A stretch of DNA of 49,655 bases from Crocinitomicaceae bacterium (GTDB taxonomy: Bacteria; Bacteroidota; Bacteroidia; Flavobacteriales_D; Crocinitomicaceae), in the NCBI GenBank assembly GCA_029238665.1, contig JAQWFQ010000034.1, positions 1-49,655 on the forward strand, written 5' to 3'. The notes beneath the pieces were generated by a model, which was given only the letters and a program-made list of their open reading frames with translations, made no database searches and was not told the origin of the DNA. Each line of letters begins with the position of its first letter. Within the stretch, counting starts at the first letter, position 1. Shown here one piece after another: positions 3,716 to 34,799 of the stretch. A program made the position numbers and the translations under genes.

Positions 3716-5626
3716 CTATTGTTTTTTGATAAGTTTTAAGGTTTCGCCATTTGCCTTCAAAATATAAATCCCACTCGGTTGGTTGCTTAAATTGATCGTT
3801 GTCTTATTGCTTAATGTTTTTTGTTGGAACACAAGCTGGCCGTAAAGGTTGAATACTTTGCAGTTAATTTCTGAGGAGGTTTCACTAAAAACTTGAAACT
3901 GAGAAGAACTCGGATTTGGGAATACGTGAATAGAGTTTAATGCTTGAATAGCCGGTAGTCCAGCACTTGGATGAAATGTATAAAATTCATACTCGGCCCT
4001 TTCTGGAGAAAGGGAAATAGCATTGTCATTATGTGCTCGAATGTAAAACTTAATTTCTTCTCCACTTGCTAGATAAGGAAGTTCGACAGTATAAACTCCA
4101 TCATTTGCAATCGCATCTCCAAGTGTCCCATCATCGTGCATTGGAAACGCGTTAAATTTTGAATTGTGCGGACTTATAGTAGCCATTAATTCTACTTGAG
4201 TCGGGTTTGATATCGTAGCCATTACAAAATTACCATTCAAAGAAACCTCACTTATAACAGGACTTATTTGTGTTAATTCGGAAAGGTTGGACAGGTATGA
4301 GTTACGTGCATTTATACTGGACATAATGCCTCCAAACCCCCAACTTTCCCAAATTGCGTTATCTACGTTTTCGTAGAATTGATTTGTGCTAAACAATTTG
4401 TGTTGGTCAGCGGTAACTGCTGATTCAGCAAGGGATTGAAGTTGATCCACTTGATTTAGAATAGTAGCAGTATCAGACATGGTTTCTGTAAAAACGGTTT
4501 TAAGGTGTGCGGTATAGATTTTTCGGTATAAGGGATGGTTTAACAGGTAGTCGAGAAGCGGTCGCTCGCCTACGGGGAATTGTGATCCGTAAGGATCGTA
4601 GTTGTATACAGGAGTAGGGTTCCAATAGCTCCATCCAAGAATAGCTCCTGTAAAGCTTTCGCTTAGATCCCAAGGAATCATCTGAAAAAGACCATCTTCT
4701 GTTTGATAGAGGTAATAGTTATGAATGTAATATCCGTTATAGGTATCGAGGTTTAATGTTGCTGTGTTCACTGCAAAAGCCCATAAAACACGGTCAATGT
4801 TTAAGATGTTGCCTAAGTTTGTGGGGTTAAATTTTAAGGTGAATAGAAGCTCTACCAATTGGTCCCACCCATATTCGGATTTTAGGTTGTAACTGTTAAA
4901 GTACGATGAGCTATCGAGTCCAAGCCAACCAAGGTTTGGTGGTGCTCCAGATGCCGGGTTAGGGCTTGGGTCACAAAACATGTTTATTGGGTCACACTTA
5001 AACAAGGCGCCGTTTTTTTCGCCAAAATGCTTTTCACAAAACTGTTTATTGATAGACTCTGTATTCACATAAAGGCCAAGGTAGTCTCCTTGTACGTGAA
5101 GTTTTAATACGTTCACCTCAGGGGTAGGCAGGTAATTCCTGTAAATTTTACTGGCTAAAAATTCTTTTGAAAAGGTTGGGTCAAGCCAAGCGTTAGCAAG
5201 CTTAATTTTCTTTTTTTCCATTAGTTTTTGACCAGAAACCCAGTAGTTCATATCCAGGTTATATGGAACCTTAGGGCTTAGGGCATCATTGGGCAAGCAA
5301 AAGGTTGAGTTTCCTTTGTACCGTACACCAACGCTGTCATATGTTGTTCCATTTAAACTAAGCGTAGCTGGAATTCGATAGGATGGATTATTAAAAAAAG
5401 AGTTAACCAGGGTGTCGTGGTAGTTCGTTTCATAGAAGTTTATGTGCAAATCTCTAATGGAGTCTTTGTCAAAAAGTCCGCCTTGCGCTTCGTACAAACT
5501 TTGAGGGTTGTAGATAATTTGGGTATTTGCAGAGAGCGAAATGGCCAAACAAAAGAAAATAACCTGCACTCTTAATAGCGCGTTAGAACAGATGTGGTTA
5601 CGTAAAGTAGCTGTAAATGTATACAT
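3716..5626 (-). CDS. Secreted CotH-kinase family protein with type IX secretion sorting domain
   Basis: The protein begins with a hydrophobic signal segment ending near SLSANTQ. A CotH-kinase domain follows over roughly residues 60-430 (motifs VGVRYKGNST, KKKIKLANAW, GDYLGLYVNTESINKQF and WDLSESF). CotH kinases are an atypical protein-kinase fold. A beta-sandwich region (about 460-550) and a Por-type C-terminal sorting domain (FPNPSS...SGIYILKANGETLKLIKK) complete it. The sorting domain directs type IX export to the cell surface or medium, so an extracellular role is likely. The substrate is unknown. The frame is open to a GTG at 5632, but the ATG at 5626 is preferred. A -7-like box TACTTTAG (complement of 5632-5639) sits directly upstream, which would leave almost no leader. 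A start nearer the hydrophobic segment is also possible. Confidence 0.82.
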   Translation of the reverse strand: MYTFTATLRNHICSNALLRVQVIFFCLAISLSANTQIIYNPQSLYEAQGGLFDKDSIRDLHINFYETNYHDTLVNSFFNNPSYRIPATLSLNGTTYDSVGVRYKGNSTFCLPNDALSPKVPYNLDMNYWVSGQKLMEKKKIKLANAWLDPTFSKEFLASKIYRNYLPTPEVNVLKLHVQGDYLGLYVNTESINKQFCEKHFGEKNGALFKCDPINMFCDPSPNPASGAPPNLGWLGLDSSSYFNSYNLKSEYGWDQLVELLFTLKFNPTNLGNILNIDRVLWAFAVNTATLNLDTYNGYYIHNYYLYQTEDGLFQMIPWDLSESFTGAILGWSYWNPTPVYNYDPYGSQFPVGERPLLDYLLNHPLYRKIYTAHLKTVFTETMSDTATILNQVDQLQSLAESAVTADQHKLFSTNQFYENVDNAIWESWGFGGIMSSINARNSYLSNLSELTQISPVISEVSLNGNFVMATISNPTQVELMATISPHNSKFNAFPMHDDGTLGDAIANDGVYTVELPYLASGEEIKFYIRAHNDNAISLSPERAEYEFYTFHPSAGLPAIQALNSIHVFPNPSSSQFQVFSETSSEINCKVFNLYGQLVFQQKTLSNKTTINLSNQPSGIYILKANGETLKLIKKQ

Positions 5627-5776
5627 ATCCACTAAAGTACATTATTTATGATTAATGGGTCCAATAACCTAGGTGTTGAGGAATAAATCGTAGTAGATAA
5701 TTTCATTATCTTAGTGGTCATGATGAAAATAATTCGATTGATTCATCAACCGAAGCTGTCTTTAAACAGAAACGAA

Positions 5777-23512: not shown

Positions 23513-23545
23513 TTGAATAGCATTGTGTTTTTTCCCGTACTTTTG
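23513..23545 (+). promoter_or_regulatory. Bacteroidota-type promoter of the EamA transporter gene
   Basis: The -7 box TACTTTTG (23538-23545) fits TAnnTTTG exactly, and a TTG at 23513-23515 lies 22 bases before it, at the edge of the usual spacing. Transcription would begin only a few bases from the ATG at 23550, giving a very short or absent leader. Confidence 0.5.
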
Positions 23546-30332: not shown

Positions 30333-31355
30333 TTACCGTGGGAAACTAAACCGCTTATTATACAGGAAATCTTTATCGGTTAAGGTTTTAAGAAAAGCAA
30401 TTAAATCTTTTTTTTCATTGGAAGAGAGCACTATCTTTTTTCTTAATTGGGGGCTTAGTTGCGGATTCTTTATATTAATGTCTTCGGTGTAGTAGTCGAT
30501 TACTTGCCGCAATGTTTTATACCTTCCATCATGCATGTATGGAAAGGTGAATTCAATGTTTCTTAAGGTTGGAACTCTAAATTTTAATGAATCAAGGGGG
30601 TTGTTTGTAATTTTATATCGACCTAAATCATTGAACAACGTATCTATTGGTATCCCATTATTTTCAAAACGATTGCTGTTGAAGAGTGGGGCAGTATGGC
30701 AATTGTTACAGTTTTTCTTAAATAATTTTAAACCATTCTCCTCTTGTTGTGTAAATGAACGATCTTTTTTAAGGTACTGATCATATTTGGAATTGGACGA
30801 TATTAAACTGCCTGTAAATTGTGTCAAAGCCTTTAAAAAAGAAGAAGAACTTACTATACTGTCATTAAAAGCTTCAAAGAAAAGAGCCGTATAAGTTTCA
30901 GAAGAATTTAAATAATTTAATACATTAATTAGTGAGTTATCCATTTCTGCAGGGTGTTCTATTGGATTTATGGGTTGAAGTTCTATGTGATTTACACCAC
31001 CATCCCAATGAAAGCTAGTATTCCATATTAAGTTAATGAGCGCAGGAGCATTTCTAGTTCCTTTTTTTCCATCAATACCATGACTCACCCGATGATCTAC
31101 ATGAGCGAATCCGGTATATTGTAAGTGACAATGCGCACAAGAAATTGTATTGTTTCGGGATAGCCCAGGGTCATAAAAAAGTTTTCTACCCAACTTGAAC
31201 CCTGCTTCTGTAATTGGATTGTTTTCAAAATTATAATTTGGTTTCGGCCAATTTTTTGGTGGAGTTATTTTAGATATAACAGTGCGGTCATTATAATTGA
31301 ACCCAAAAATAAATAACGATGAAATGATGAAGATAAGGGTAAGTAGCTTAGTCAC
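30333..31355 (-). CDS. MbnH/MauG-like di-haem cytochrome c peroxidase family enzyme
   Basis: A 340-residue exported protein (signal segment near 5-19) with two c-type haem sites, CAHCH (Cys73, Cys76, His77) and CNNCH (Cys216, Cys219, His220). It also has the family motifs GTRNAPALINLIW, FHWDGGVNHIELQ, NPIEHPAEM and PYMHDGR (274-276 region). This is the bacterial cytochrome c peroxidase/MauG superfamily. Because it directly follows and overlaps (8 bases) an MbnP-like gene, it is best read as an MbnH homologue. MbnH is a peroxide-using enzyme that turns a tryptophan of MbnP into kynurenine to build a copper site. It could instead be a plain H2O2-detoxifying peroxidase. The start is GTG. Confidence 0.85.
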   Translation of the reverse strand: MTKLLTLIFIISSLFIFGFNYNDRTVISKITPPKNWPKPNYNFENNPITEAGFKLGRKLFYDPGLSRNNTISCAHCHLQYTGFAHVDHRVSHGIDGKKGTRNAPALINLIWNTSFHWDGGVNHIELQPINPIEHPAEMDNSLINVLNYLNSSETYTALFFEAFNDSIVSSSSFLKALTQFTGSLISSNSKYDQYLKKDRSFTQQEENGLKLFKKNCNNCHTAPLFNSNRFENNGIPIDTLFNDLGRYKITNNPLDSLKFRVPTLRNIEFTFPYMHDGRYKTLRQVIDYYTEDINIKNPQLSPQLRKKIVLSSNEKKDLIAFLKTLTDKDFLYNKRFSFPR

Positions 31356-31987
31356 TTATTGAAAATATTGTGGGAAGTAATTTTGAAATTTCAACAGCCT
31401 TTACTCCCGGAATCATGATGCTGTTTTGAGTATTTATATTCAGTTTGTTTAATAACAATGTTGGCTCAACATTAATGGTTAAAGAATCGTTGAGTTTTGA
31501 TTTAAGAGGTATTATCATGCGTTGAGCGGTGGCTTGAATTCCATTATAGCCACCAATATGGAGCTCAATAGGGTAGGTGTTCCCTCCCTTTGTGAAGTCG
31601 CCTTCGAGTTTAAAGTTAATATACCCAGAGTTCCATGCCCAATACATTCCTTTAACAGGGTCTAGATCTCCATCAAGAATGCCTGAAACATTGACAAGAC
31701 TATCTGTACCAATTAGAAATTGAATGGATTCAATCTCATCTGAGTTATCCAGATAAATGATTTGACTTTTTAAAAGTTCTTGATCTATGAGGTAGCACTG
31801 GTTTTTTTCTTCGTGAACATGTCCGTTTTTTTAGGTTTAACTTAATGGATGAAATGTAAAACTTAAATGTTTTTTGTTTGAACGAAGCGTCTGTTATGAA
31901 GTTAAATGTAAGGGGTGTCTTTTTTATTGAAGACTGACCAAATGCAATCGTACTGAGGGTAATTAAAATAAAGACGAGTCTCACCAT
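31348..31987 (-). pseudogene. MbnP-like copper-binding protein gene, frameshifted
   Basis: Two frames make up one gene. From ATG at 31987 the first frame encodes a signal peptide and PLTFNFITDASFKQ...YISSIKLNLK, then derails. Removing one A from the seven-A run (T7 at 31826-31832 on the plus strand) continues the protein as NGHVHEEKNQCYLIDQELLK...GILDGDLDPVKGMYWAWNSGY...IELHIGGY to the stop at 31348, about 212 residues. The total of 640 bases is one more than a multiple of three, as expected for a single insertion. The motifs GMYWAWNSGY (W116, W118), HVH and LHIGGY fit the MbnP family, which binds copper with the help of a kynurenine made by MbnH. The rest of the sequence has not decayed, so the shift is recent, a sequencing error, or rescued by slippage. 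Confidence 0.8.
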
Positions 31988-31995
31988 TTTTTCGT

Positions 31996-32475
31996 TTATC
32001 TTCTTTTATGCTGTCCTCCATGAGGAGGTCCCATTGATCCTGGTGGACGGTGGTGTGCCCGTGAAATGGTTCTACGTATAAATTTCTTTAGTTGTACTTT
32101 TTGGGTTTCATTACAGTTTTTAGAAACTTCATTAAAAAAATTAAATGTCAGGTGTTCAATTTCAGCTTTGGTTGAGTCTAATTTTTGTTGTAGTCTTAAT
32201 ATAGGTCGTTTATCGTTGCCTACAGCATCAAAAAGTTGGTGGCGTAACTCTTGGCTTAAGCGAACCATCGCTTGTTTATTCTGATGGTGATTTCTCTCTA
32301 AGGAGTCTACGGTTATTTTTGCTTGCCCATTTAACGATATTATTTCAGAAATAGGTGGCTTTCCTTTATGACCTGGGCGCCCTGGAGGCCTTCGAAACCA
32401 CATGGCAGAAAGTGCTGCTATATTGATTAACACCAACAAAAGGATAACTAGCTTGTAAAAGCGCACATTTTTCAT
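31996..32475 (-). CDS. Spy/CnrX-like periplasmic heavy-metal sensor protein
   Basis: A 159-residue protein with one N-terminal membrane helix (about 8-25, VILLLVLINIAALSAMWF). A helical, charged periplasmic domain (about 60-135) follows, and a His/Pro-rich tail (RAHHRPPGSMGPPHGGQHKRR). This is the layout of Spy/CpxP/CnrX-type proteins, which sense metals or envelope stress. It overlaps the small membrane protein gene upstream by four bases (ATGA) and is followed by mbnP eight bases later. A role as the sensor that controls the neighbouring sigma/anti-sigma pair is inferred from order. Confidence 0.7.
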   Translation of the reverse strand: MKNVRFYKLVILLLVLINIAALSAMWFRRPPGRPGHKGKPPISEIISLNGQAKITVDSLERNHHQNKQAMVRLSQELRHQLFDAVGNDKRPILRLQQKLDSTKAEIEHLTFNFFNEVSKNCNETQKVQLKKFIRRTISRAHHRPPGSMGPPHGGQHKRR

Positions 32476-32765
32476 AGCTCAATTTGCGTTAGGTAAGAGA
32501 AATGTGAGTCCATTAATTCTGTAGAATTTGAGCTGGACGAAGTATTTGAACTGTACTCGTTCACCGCAATAAAATTCATGCAAATTAAAACAGCAATACT
32601 CGCTGCCACTGACCAAACGACTTTTTTGGGTAGTCTAATATAGCTAACAGAAAGTGTGTTGGGAATACGTTTTAAACGCGCTTGTAACGCCTGACTAGGC
32701 TTTGCTTGATTAATGTACACTTCCGTATCCATGATTTGGTTTATCCACTGTTCTTTTCTTTCCAT
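32472..32765 (-). CDS. Small membrane protein, probable anti-sigma factor
   Basis: A 97-residue protein with a polar cytoplasmic N-terminus (MERKEQWINQIMDTEVYINQ), a single membrane helix near 48-66 (VVWSVAASIAVLICMNFIAV), and a short Ser/Asn-rich outer tail. No zinc-binding HxxxCxxC is present, so it is not a ZAS-type anti-sigma. Its size and single helix recall CnrY. It follows the ECF sigma gene by 39 bases and overlaps the Spy/CnrX-like gene by four, which supports the anti-sigma reading. Confidence 0.6.
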   Translation of the reverse strand: MERKEQWINQIMDTEVYINQAKPSQALQARLKRIPNTLSVSYIRLPKKVVWSVAASIAVLICMNFIAVNEYSSNTSSSSNSTELMDSHFSYLTQIEL

Positions 32766-32804
32766 CTATTCTTTAGTTGTCATTTTATTAAATTACTTGT
32801 GGTT

Positions 32805-33392
32805 TTAACGTTCATTTTTTTCAAAATAATCGGATAATAGTTCTCTTAAGCGTTTTTTTGCTCTAAATAAGAGTGACTCAACAGAAGAAATTGATGTGTG
32901 CATTATCTCAGCAACTTCAGCATAACTTACCCCTTCAATCTTATGCATTGTAAATGCTATTTTTTGATTTTCTGACAATTGATCTAAGGCTTCAAAGAAA
33001 ATTTTAGCACGTTCTTTATCTTCAAGAAGCACACCAGGATGATTAAAATTGATAATTTGATTAGGTAGAAAATGAGTATCCTCTCGTTCAATGGTTGTCA
33101 ATCTTCCCAAACGTTTTTTACGTGTCTTACTTCGGAGAAATTCTTTACTCTTATTTAGGGCAATTGAATAGATCCACGTAGATAATTTTGACTTGCCTTT
33201 AAACCCATCAATTCCTAAGTAGATAGAAGTAAATACTTCTTGGGTTACATCTTCCGCATCTTCGTTGTTTCTAAGCAGATTGACACATGTGTTAAACACT
33301 TTTCCGGTGTATGAATCAACAAGTAAGGAAAAGGCTCTATCCTTATCGTGTTTTACCAATTCAAGTAATGATATGTCAGTTATTTCTAGCAA
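32805..33392 (-). CDS. ECF-type RNA polymerase sigma factor
   Basis: A 195-residue sigma-70 family protein of the extracytoplasmic-function group. Region 2 covers about 20-90 (FSLLVDSYTGKVFNTCVNLL, DAEDVTQEVF, STWIYSIALNKSKEFLRS). Region 4 covers 135-185 (LSENQKIAFTMHKIEGVSYAEVAEIMHTS...RAKKRLRELL). Region 3 is absent, as in all ECF factors. The frame begins with TTG at 33392 and no ATG is available near, so TTG is the likely start. It heads the cluster sigma - anti-sigma-like - metal-sensor-like - MbnP - MbnH, and is expected to transcribe that cluster when its anti-sigma releases it. Confidence 0.88.
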   Translation of the reverse strand: MLEITDISLLELVKHDKDRAFSLLVDSYTGKVFNTCVNLLRNNEDAEDVTQEVFTSIYLGIDGFKGKSKLSTWIYSIALNKSKEFLRSKTRKKRLGRLTTIEREDTHFLPNQIINFNHPGVLLEDKERAKIFFEALDQLSENQKIAFTMHKIEGVSYAEVAEIMHTSISSVESLLFRAKKRLRELLSDYFEKNER

Positions 33393-33464: not shown

Positions 33465-34799
33465 ATGAAAAAAAATGGACTTTTAATTTTCGTTCTACTA
33501 TACCTAACGTCATGTTCTTCTAATTCAGAAGTACAGTCTGCTGACAAAATAGATGCTGCGTATAGTGCAGGTTTAACTGAATTGTCAGATGAAGAATATC
33601 CAGATAATCCAGATATTTCTGTACGTCATCCTAAATACATTGAGACAACGATGGATTCCATTGAGTTTCTCCAGTCTGATGTGGGCTTCACACTTGTTAT
33701 TACTCCTGAAAATGAGGGTGATGATACTGTAAAACTGAATGGCATTCGTTTAATGGAATTTATTCCTACAATACCCGAGTGTTCAAAAGGAGATGAGTAT
33801 ATGTCTTTAATTTCAGTTGTGAACCAAGAGTGGAATAGAAACCAGGTAAAGTGGGTTGGTGATGAGTTGAAAAAAGCGACTTCAAAAGTTCATACCGTTA
33901 ATAATGAAAAAATTACACGCATCGATTTAGCTCGAAATTGTTTGAATTCATATTTATGGGAATTGTTTTTTTATGCTGATGTAGACGGAAAGGATAAGGT
34001 GTTTTACCACGCTTGGTTCAATTTCCCAGCAGAACTATATAAAACGCTTTTCGATAAGCGAAATGCAGATGATTTTGAAAACTATACAAATTACTTGGAA
34101 ACGTGGAGAGACCCTGAGAACTTGCCTTTAGAACTCTCTAGAATAAGAGTCCAACAATCAGAAGTGATGGTGCCTTGCTCAAATCGTTCAGACGAAATGT
34201 ATCCATTAAAAGGGGAGCGAAAAAAGAAACAAATTGCGATAATATATCCGGAGACGTACACCAAAATGTCAGATTTTCATACAGACTCTGCATTGTTCGC
34301 AACCTTTTCACAGCCAGGATTCTATAATAGAAAAGACCCTCGAACGACAGAATTAGGAAGGTTCAAAACATTGAATAATGTACAGTACAGATTAACAGAG
34401 ACCGAGCACGTTCAGCACGACGAGTTGCGCTTCGAGTTTTCAAGAGAAAATGGAGAAGTAACACAATTTATTTTTGGAGGAATTCAGTTTGAAGATTTAC
34501 CAACATTAGCCACTGAAAATGCAAATTCAGGGAGTCAATTTTCTATGGGAATAGGAAACCATCCATTTTATGAAGATTGTATTGCTCATGAGAAATTATG
34601 CAGTAAAAACAATCCTTATTTTGGTGTATTGCTAGATGGAGATAACAACTGGTTGGATAGCCACAAAATAGGAATTGATGGTCCGTTATTGCATCGCGAT
34701 TTGAAAAATGAAAACTTGATTCATGTATGGCTACTTTCATTTGAAAGGCATGCCTTAGTTGGCCATTATATTGTAGACCTATCTAAAGTAAACCGTTAA
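33465..34799 (+). CDS. Unknown large lipoprotein
   Basis: The 444-residue product has a lipoprotein signal peptide (VLLYLTSCSS, Cys near 17) and then a soluble, acidic domain. It contains several Cys (IPECSKGD, LARNCLNS, VMVPCSNRSD, EDCIAHEKLCSKN) that might form disulphides. No family is recognised. It is divergent from the ECF sigma gene with only 72 bases between, so a shared control region and membership of the same regulon are possible. Confidence 0.65.
   Translation: MKKNGLLIFVLLYLTSCSSNSEVQSADKIDAAYSAGLTELSDEEYPDNPDISVRHPKYIETTMDSIEFLQSDVGFTLVITPENEGDDTVKLNGIRLMEFIPTIPECSKGDEYMSLISVVNQEWNRNQVKWVGDELKKATSKVHTVNNEKITRIDLARNCLNSYLWELFFYADVDGKDKVFYHAWFNFPAELYKTLFDKRNADDFENYTNYLETWRDPENLPLELSRIRVQQSEVMVPCSNRSDEMYPLKGERKKKQIAIIYPETYTKMSDFHTDSALFATFSQPGFYNRKDPRTTELGRFKTLNNVQYRLTETEHVQHDELRFEFSRENGEVTQFIFGGIQFEDLPTLATENANSGSQFSMGIGNHPFYEDCIAHEKLCSKNNPYFGVLLDGDNNWLDSHKIGIDGPLLHRDLKNENLIHVWLLSFERHALVGHYIVDLSKVNR

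Follow-up and report, generated by a model that had tools for sequence, protein, structure and literature searches.

The window analysed here is a 49,655-nucleotide stretch of Crocinitomicaceae DNA (assembly GCA_029238665.1, contig JAQWFQ010000034.1), which is the entire contig C5 of a source genome of 2.2 Mb in 34 contigs (G000). On its minus strand, from 33392 to 30333 in the order of transcription, lie co-directional and tightly spaced genes for an extracytoplasmic function (ECF) sigma factor, an anti-sigma factor, a sensor, MbnP and MbnH, with overlaps of 4 bp between the anti-sigma and sensor genes and 8 bp between those of MbnP and MbnH. An earlier note, made from the letters of the window alone, had described five such genes as a signalling module driving a copper-site pair; all five are present and in that order, but the MbnP gene is frameshifted and is not one open gene. 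The features are as follows.

32805–33392, minus strand: ECF sigma factor, 195 amino acids (aa), TTG start; PF08281 (63.9 bits) and PF04542 (54.3 bits), both over cut-off.
32774–32800, minus strand: predicted ECF promoter element, ACAAGTAA-N13-CAACTA, found by matrix rank and separated from the anti-sigma ATG by 8 bp.
32472–32765, minus strand: anti-sigma factor with one transmembrane (TM) helix, 97 aa, with a C-terminal FSxLxxL-like tail; assigned by position and by conservation in 23 aligned sequences.
31996–32475, minus strand: membrane-anchored periplasmic sensor of predicted CnrX fold, 159 aa; AlphaFold2 model, Foldseek and VIA.
31348–31987, minus strand: MbnP gene, frameshifted in the assembly; PF20243, fragments 31745–31987 and 31348–31827.
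31826–31832, no strand assigned: run of seven T on the plus strand (A7 in the MbnP gene), the point of frame change; frame inspection.
30333–31355, minus strand: MbnH-type di-haem enzyme, 340 aa; PF03150, TIGR04039, best PDB sequence match 6e1c.

The identity of the sensor was approached through its fold. An AlphaFold2 model of the window protein, built from a 45-sequence alignment (mean predicted local distance difference test score, pLDDT, 89.7), returned CnrX chains at every one of Foldseek ranks 1–14 (probability 1.00, E 0.02–0.1), with VirG-like proteins, NccX, CpxP, ZraP and Spy ranked lower. VIA placed CnrX entries at ranks 1–8 (Z 10.3–11.4 over 99–103 residues). The sensor is a helical bundle, for which a Z of 11.4 alone is modest; because unrelated helical proteins reach Z 9–10, the CnrX assignment rests on the unanimous top ranks. 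When the sensor profile was compared with PDB sequences, three of the five best matches fell, weakly, in the CnrX/Spy-type superfamily (VirG-like, E 0.0026; NccX; Spy). The model thus points to a CnrX fold with an N-terminal membrane anchor, as expected by the earlier note, which had proposed a relationship to Spy and CnrX. The source genome contains a single match to this sensor.

Leu14 and Asn18 in the sensor TM helix are invariant in the 45 sequences, and His63, Phe114, Cys121 and Gln125 are nearly so. A histidine-rich tail, which the earlier note ascribed to the sensor, does exist in the window copy, but among 23 aligned sequences it is confined to that copy. The anti-sigma factor has no Pfam match at E values up to 1 and no match to CnrY among PDB sequences; its size and its one hydrophobic stretch agree with CnrY. 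Its TM residue Asn64 is invariant in 23 aligned sequences, and the FSxLxxL-like tail is conserved in closer relatives. Judging from these sequence patterns, the TM helices of sensor and anti-sigma factor may pair, and the anti-sigma tail may contact the sensor.

The MbnP region matches PF20243 with 95.7 bits in a six-frame search (cut-off 27), with two stops within the match, and the fragment 31348–31647 gives 49.5 bits. The closest named relative (L089), modelled in place of the broken window copy, gave a model with a mean pLDDT of 90.4, for which Methylosinus MbnP (7l6g) accounted for the sole Foldseek matches under 0.001 (E 6e-8) and led the VIA ranking, reaching Z 14.6 across 187 residues where the entry after it had only Z 4.9. 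Neither the MbnP profile nor an MbnP paralogue from the source genome matched MbnP among PDB sequences, but the fold search did find it. In Methylosinus MbnP, the first tryptophan of a WxW motif is converted to kynurenine by MbnH, which creates a Cu(I) site; in work by Manesis and colleagues from 2021, MbnH reportedly oxidises this tryptophan and MbnP then binds Cu(I) through a histidine and a methionine. Met119, Trp121, Trp123 and His148 (L089 numbering) are invariant across 48 MbnP sequences, including the window fragment, which retains WxW, histidine and methionine. The source genome has three more MbnP genes (L082–L084; contigs C4, C31 and C6), each with a CCP_MauG gene within about 1 kb.

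MbnH combines a CCP_MauG domain (PF03150, 169.9 bits) with two CxxCH motifs (CAHCH at 73 and CNNCH at 216), followed by PYMHDG at 272. Its nearest solved relative is 6e1c, which ranks above cytochrome c peroxidases and MauG; the PDB entry reads di-heme enzyme, and we take it to be MbnH. The proposed MbnP–MbnH pair is upheld, with the MbnP member broken in this assembly.

The arrangement recurs in related genomes. In a set of 60 genomes including the source, the sensor was found in 24, and the other 23 genomes yielded 23 loci; all five genes occur in order in 14 of these (MbnP by PF20243), including one in which the contig ends inside MbnH and two in which the anti-sigma factor was assigned by position. 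In G055 a CotH gene is inserted between sensor and MbnP. Divergent from the window sigma gene, 33465–34799 (plus strand) encodes a 444-aa lipoprotein-like protein without a Pfam match, and its relatives adjoin the switch in 9 of the 23 loci, one of which carries a decayed switch (G026, L080).

Two larger samples were then annotated. The first was centred on MbnP: contigs were scanned with an MbnP alignment and the best 80 of 570 confirmed stretches were annotated with hidden Markov models (HMMs), a sample biased toward the window type of MbnP because only the best 80 were taken. MbnP is directly preceded by the sensor in 56 of these loci (by another gene in 21 and by the contig edge in 3) and directly followed by MbnH in 73; the direct order sigma, anti-sigma, sensor, MbnP occurs in 49. 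The second sample was centred on the sensor, whose profile found matches in 128 of the 399 genomes from the order; 22 of these were already covered, and 100 of the 106 others were used (five of the six left aside are weak matches). A sigma gene lies within two genes upstream of the sensor in 95 of the 100 loci, and the gene after the sensor is MbnP in 77, YHYH in 6, MbnH in 2 and another gene in 15. MbnH comes next after MbnP in 73 loci, while 4 others stop at a contig edge; in 58 a YHYH gene stands behind the pair. The arrangement recurs far beyond chance, in most of the 80 and 100 loci, and the gene order that had been put forward for testing is conserved in and beyond Flavobacteriales (14/23, 56/80 and 77/100 loci). 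Titles of switch-bearing loci, mostly labels of metagenome-assembled genomes, include Crocinitomicaceae, Fluviicola, Flavobacterium, Chryseobacterium, Saprospiraceae, Aureispira and Sphingobacteriales, among others. Two loci (L271, L276) have a second MbnP–MbnH pair upstream of sigma, so that the pair brackets the switch.

The usual gene set is larger than five, with YHYH and, in few loci, a multicopper oxidase, CotH or arylsulfotransferase gene. Some YHYH and CotH labels proved to be cross-matches of a shared secretion tail (L243, for example, is a multicopper oxidase), and YHYH was recounted at E 1e-50; at this threshold it lies within three genes of MbnP in 52 of the 80 MbnP-centred loci (53 at 1e-3). 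YHYH proteins scanned whole (three plus one) carry PF14240 and a type IX secretion tail, and the weakest YHYH call, L229, was confirmed by Pfam. The source genome gave no YHYH match in a search that also gave none in any control genome. A further di-haem peroxidase-like gene lies past YHYH in three loci (L116:9012–10217, L158:6364–7551 and L161:8912–10087). Multicopper oxidase genes, recognised by likeness to the L216 copy and each confirmed by Pfam, occur in a minority of 10 loci, 7 from the 80 MbnP-centred ones and 3 from the 100 sensor-centred ones. In L216 the oxidase gene immediately follows the sensor gene, and in L135, L142, L144 and L121 it separates MbnP from MbnH. In L112, L145, L156 and L261 it has another position next to the pair, and in L243 it is on the opposite strand. 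An AhpC/TSA-like gene follows the oxidase in L216, L156 and L135.

A promoter-like element accompanies the switch. In the genus of the window this element, [G/A]CAAGTTT-N13-CAnCTA, is located between sigma and anti-sigma genes, and in other genera of the family GCAAGTTT-N13-CATCTA-like sites sit upstream of sigma, 8–22 bp before its listed start. With a matrix made from 14 genus sites, the source genome left out, the window junction at 32774–32800 ranks second of 99,258 27-mers; the first-ranked match (23370, plus strand) lies more than 100 bp before an open reading frame (ORF) at 23523 and is probably due to chance. Autoregulation from a site before the window sigma gene was rejected, as the best match there agrees at 8 of 13 positions, which is at chance, and the element was found at the sigma/anti-sigma junction instead. 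A matrix from 13 of the sites upstream of sigma was applied to 185 unique loci, counting sites within −20 to 80 bp of a start. The element precedes sigma at 44 of 155 starts (a count that includes the training sites), anti-sigma at 39 of 128 and YHYH at 34 of 122, and it precedes neither the sensor (0 of 161) nor MbnH (0 of 147). It precedes MbnP at 3 of 159 starts, all three in loci without a switch upstream, where 3 of 21 starts over threshold, against about 1% of random stretches, is suggestive only.

Remote sites were sought with patterns and reversed controls. An exact pattern gave 9 matches against 0 in the control across 10 genomes, and a looser one gave 96 against 45 across 200 genomes. 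Because counts against the reversed control were mixed overall, the argument for the element is carried by position, and we set aside pattern-match counts as proof of a regulon. Exact sites precede CotH genes in G191, G354 and G392 (two identified by Pfam, that of G191 by likeness), and the CATCAA form precedes a VTC–DUF4956 pair in G318. In G012 an exact site precedes an arylsulfotransferase–CotH–propeller operon. The same operon occurs on contig C14 of the source genome (L347:2167–7288), with the element 46 bp before its first gene and a type IX tail on all three proteins; in G017, where only the first gene is seen, the element again precedes the arylsulfotransferase gene. When the regions upstream of this gene in the source genome, G012 and G017 are aligned, the element stands out by eye as the principal stretch of conservation; the proteins are 68–75% identical. 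The other CotH genes of the source genome, including the CotH kinase-type gene of the window (3716–5632, minus strand; PF08757, 131.9 bits), have no element in a flank of about 1.5 kb. A replicative-helicase-like ORF, recognised by eye (L311, L329, L337, L338), lies under two CATCAA-type sites and also near two CotH loci; for the sites this is probably chance.

We consider it probable that the locus encodes a transmembrane sigma switch resembling CnrYXH, which gene order ties to the MbnP–MbnH copper-site pair and which works as follows. The sensor of CnrX fold, held in the membrane by a single TM helix, would bind a periplasmic metal, most likely copper, and its contact with the one-TM anti-sigma factor would alter the grip of the latter on the ECF sigma factor. 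We infer that the freed sigma factor would guide RNA polymerase to [G/A]CAAGTTT-N13-CAnCTA promoters. The junction promoter would then drive anti-sigma, sensor, MbnP and MbnH, the output together with its own brake, and a remote target in the source genome would be the arylsulfotransferase–CotH–propeller operon, with YHYH and other CotH genes as further targets in relatives. MbnH would turn the first tryptophan of WxW in MbnP into kynurenine and so create the Cu(I) site. Copper is the likely signal because of the output genes, and the multicopper oxidase in or beside the operon in 10 loci links the switch to copper.

Several observations weigh against this proposal. Whereas PF20243, PF03150, PF08281 and PF04542 all scored over their cut-offs, PF13801 (Metal_resist) reached 17.2 bits on the sensor against a cut-off of 29.2, TIGR04039 reached 219.9 of the 362.85 bits required for MbnH, yet was the best among the NCBIfam models listed, and TIGR04052 (MbnP, WxW) reached 17.8 of 140 bits on the fragment 31348–31647. 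None of the Foldseek matches of the sensor attains E 0.001. The metal ligands of CnrX are His42, His46, Glu63, His119 and Met123, and in a weak HMMER alignment of the sensor to NccX the conserved residues His63 and Cys121 do not, by eye, seem to match these positions. In MbnP, the signal-peptide part and the remainder are in different frames. Six of the 23 relatives' loci retain the switch without MbnP and MbnH. At 111 of 155 sigma starts and 89 of 128 anti-sigma starts the element stays under threshold, and of the 237 element sites 117 are away from any listed start. A genus-fitted pattern gave 2 matches against 2 in the reversed control in the source genome, and 16 against 21 in 33 genomes including it. 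The two matches coincide with the window junction and with the site of the C14 operon, and the 16 comprise the junction (3), arylsulfotransferase (3), CotH (1, G008), a CotH-like ORF in second place (1, G011), YHYH (1) and others (7).

A serious competing possibility, to which we give somewhat less than an even chance, is that the output is decaying in this organism, with MbnP a pseudogene and the cassette leaving a small genome. The MbnP frame switches at the seven-base A/T run at 31826–31832, and the failure to find YHYH in the source genome would fit, with the limit of that search given above. Decay is seen elsewhere: the G012 locus has a truncated MbnP and no MbnH, G026 keeps only a truncated sigma gene and a sensor remnant, and 14 of 34 genomes of the window genus have no sensor match. 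However, the 159 codons past the shift are open and retain all residues that are invariant in 15 relatives, and MbnH, sensor, anti-sigma, sigma and element are intact. General homopolymer noise in the assembly is unsupported, as 50 A/T runs of at least seven sit inside open ORFs of the window; the shift may be either a real mutation or a single one-base assembly error.

It is less likely that the switch senses another cue (envelope or peroxide stress, zinc, nickel or cobalt) and that MbnP and MbnH are one of several envelope outputs. The fold matches below CnrX include VirG-like proteins, CpxP, ZraP and Spy, regulon-like sites precede CotH, VTC and arylsulfotransferase genes, for which we know of no copper role, and the switch without the pair in 6 of 23 loci is consistent with such a function. 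MbnP is nevertheless the commonest neighbour, and multicopper oxidase recurs, albeit in a minority of loci.

We regard as unlikely a version in which the same switch responds to copper shortage, such that the apo-sensor frees sigma and MbnP, MbnH and the surface proteins scavenge copper. As described in excerpts of PMC3912023, methanotroph CorA is copper-repressible, binds Cu(I) with a kynurenine nearby and is proposed to function in acquisition, and exported type IX secretion partners would suit a function outside the cell. The multicopper oxidase and AhpC/TSA-like partners resemble copper defence more, and added nickel induces the cnr switch (PMC9045368, in part). Finally, it is very improbable that MbnP is produced by slippage at A7 with a functional split: A7 does lie at the shift point, but we rejected a programmed frameshift as the principal explanation because 10 intact relatives lack the run at the same place, and the 50 other runs lie in open window ORFs.

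The proposed copper-responsive switch resembles CnrYXH and NccYXH of Cupriavidus in its three-part membrane module, its CnrX-fold sensor and its small one-TM anti-sigma factor. In Cupriavidus, both cnrC and the anti-sigma gene cnrY are preceded by CnrH-dependent promoters, alongside an RpoD promoter (PMC9045368); like cnrYp and cnrCp, the predicted promoters here stand ahead of the anti-sigma gene and of an output gene. The likeness to CnrYXH drawn by the earlier note is thus borne out by the best fold match and by the position of the element. Unlike CnrYXH, the gene order here is sigma–anti-sigma–sensor rather than Y–X–H, the host is a member of Bacteroidota, the output is MbnP, MbnH and YHYH rather than a resistance–nodulation–division (RND) efflux pump, and the conserved candidate ligands differ. 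CnrY is a class II anti-sigma factor, and class I anti-sigma factors are reported with only 6% of Bacteroidetes ECFs (PMC7406223, in part).

Sigma-based systems near MbnP and MbnH are already known; the earlier note knew of no description of a dedicated sigma-based metal switch for them. In the sections of PMC3621798 (Kenney and Rosenzweig 2013) drawn on here, MbnP–MbnH pairs are conserved far beyond methanobactin producers, and FecIRA-like MbnI, MbnR and MbnT accompany both methanobactin operons and isolated pairs, so that ECF sigma and anti-sigma genes lie near MbnP–MbnH there as they do here. The MbnR of those sections is a FecR-type sensor driven by a TonB receptor, in a methanobactin context and without a CnrX-type sensor. 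The earlier note saw no methanobactin precursor, and the MbnB family (PF05114) has no match in the source genome; the control matched in 2 of 14 genomes. MbnPH-like genes also occur in copper operons (PMC9426467, in part). CorA–CorB and MopE–SACCP of methanotrophs share a surface Cu(I) protein with kynurenine, a di-haem partner and copper regulation, but the excerpts of PMC3912023 mention no sigma switch, and those of PMC3621798 describe the sequences as not markedly MbnP-like. CorE of Myxococcus is likewise an ECF sigma factor for copper homeostasis, with a multicopper oxidase among its targets, but in the excerpts of PMC10141476 and PMC8999054 it senses copper with its own Cys-rich C-terminal extension rather than through an anti-sigma factor with a periplasmic sensor. 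Searches of open-access literature yielded no description of a CnrX-type switch for MbnP and MbnH, and the titles listed included nothing relevant on YHYH with copper or with CotH or VTC; it is the CnrX-type wiring that may be new.

The observation in the earlier note is thus partly confirmed and its interpretation partly supported, and the cassette is larger than first described. We suggest, tentatively and at somewhat less than even odds, that it represents an undescribed copper-responsive ECF regulon of Bacteroidota, in which a CnrX-fold sensor controls an envelope and type IX-exported set. This set would comprise MbnP, whose Cu(I) site depends on kynurenine, the maturase MbnH, the uncharacterised YHYH protein and, in some lineages, arylsulfotransferase, CotH kinase and a multicopper oxidase. 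Because the switch is dedicated to the pair, conserved and equipped with a predicted promoter, it would offer a direct handle on the role of MbnP–MbnH outside methanobactin producers, and YHYH, CotH and arylsulfotransferase genes, which seem to be co-regulated, could be tested as partners of the pair. If the proposal is true, the YHYH and CotH proteins would join the machinery that handles copper at the cell surface as new members.

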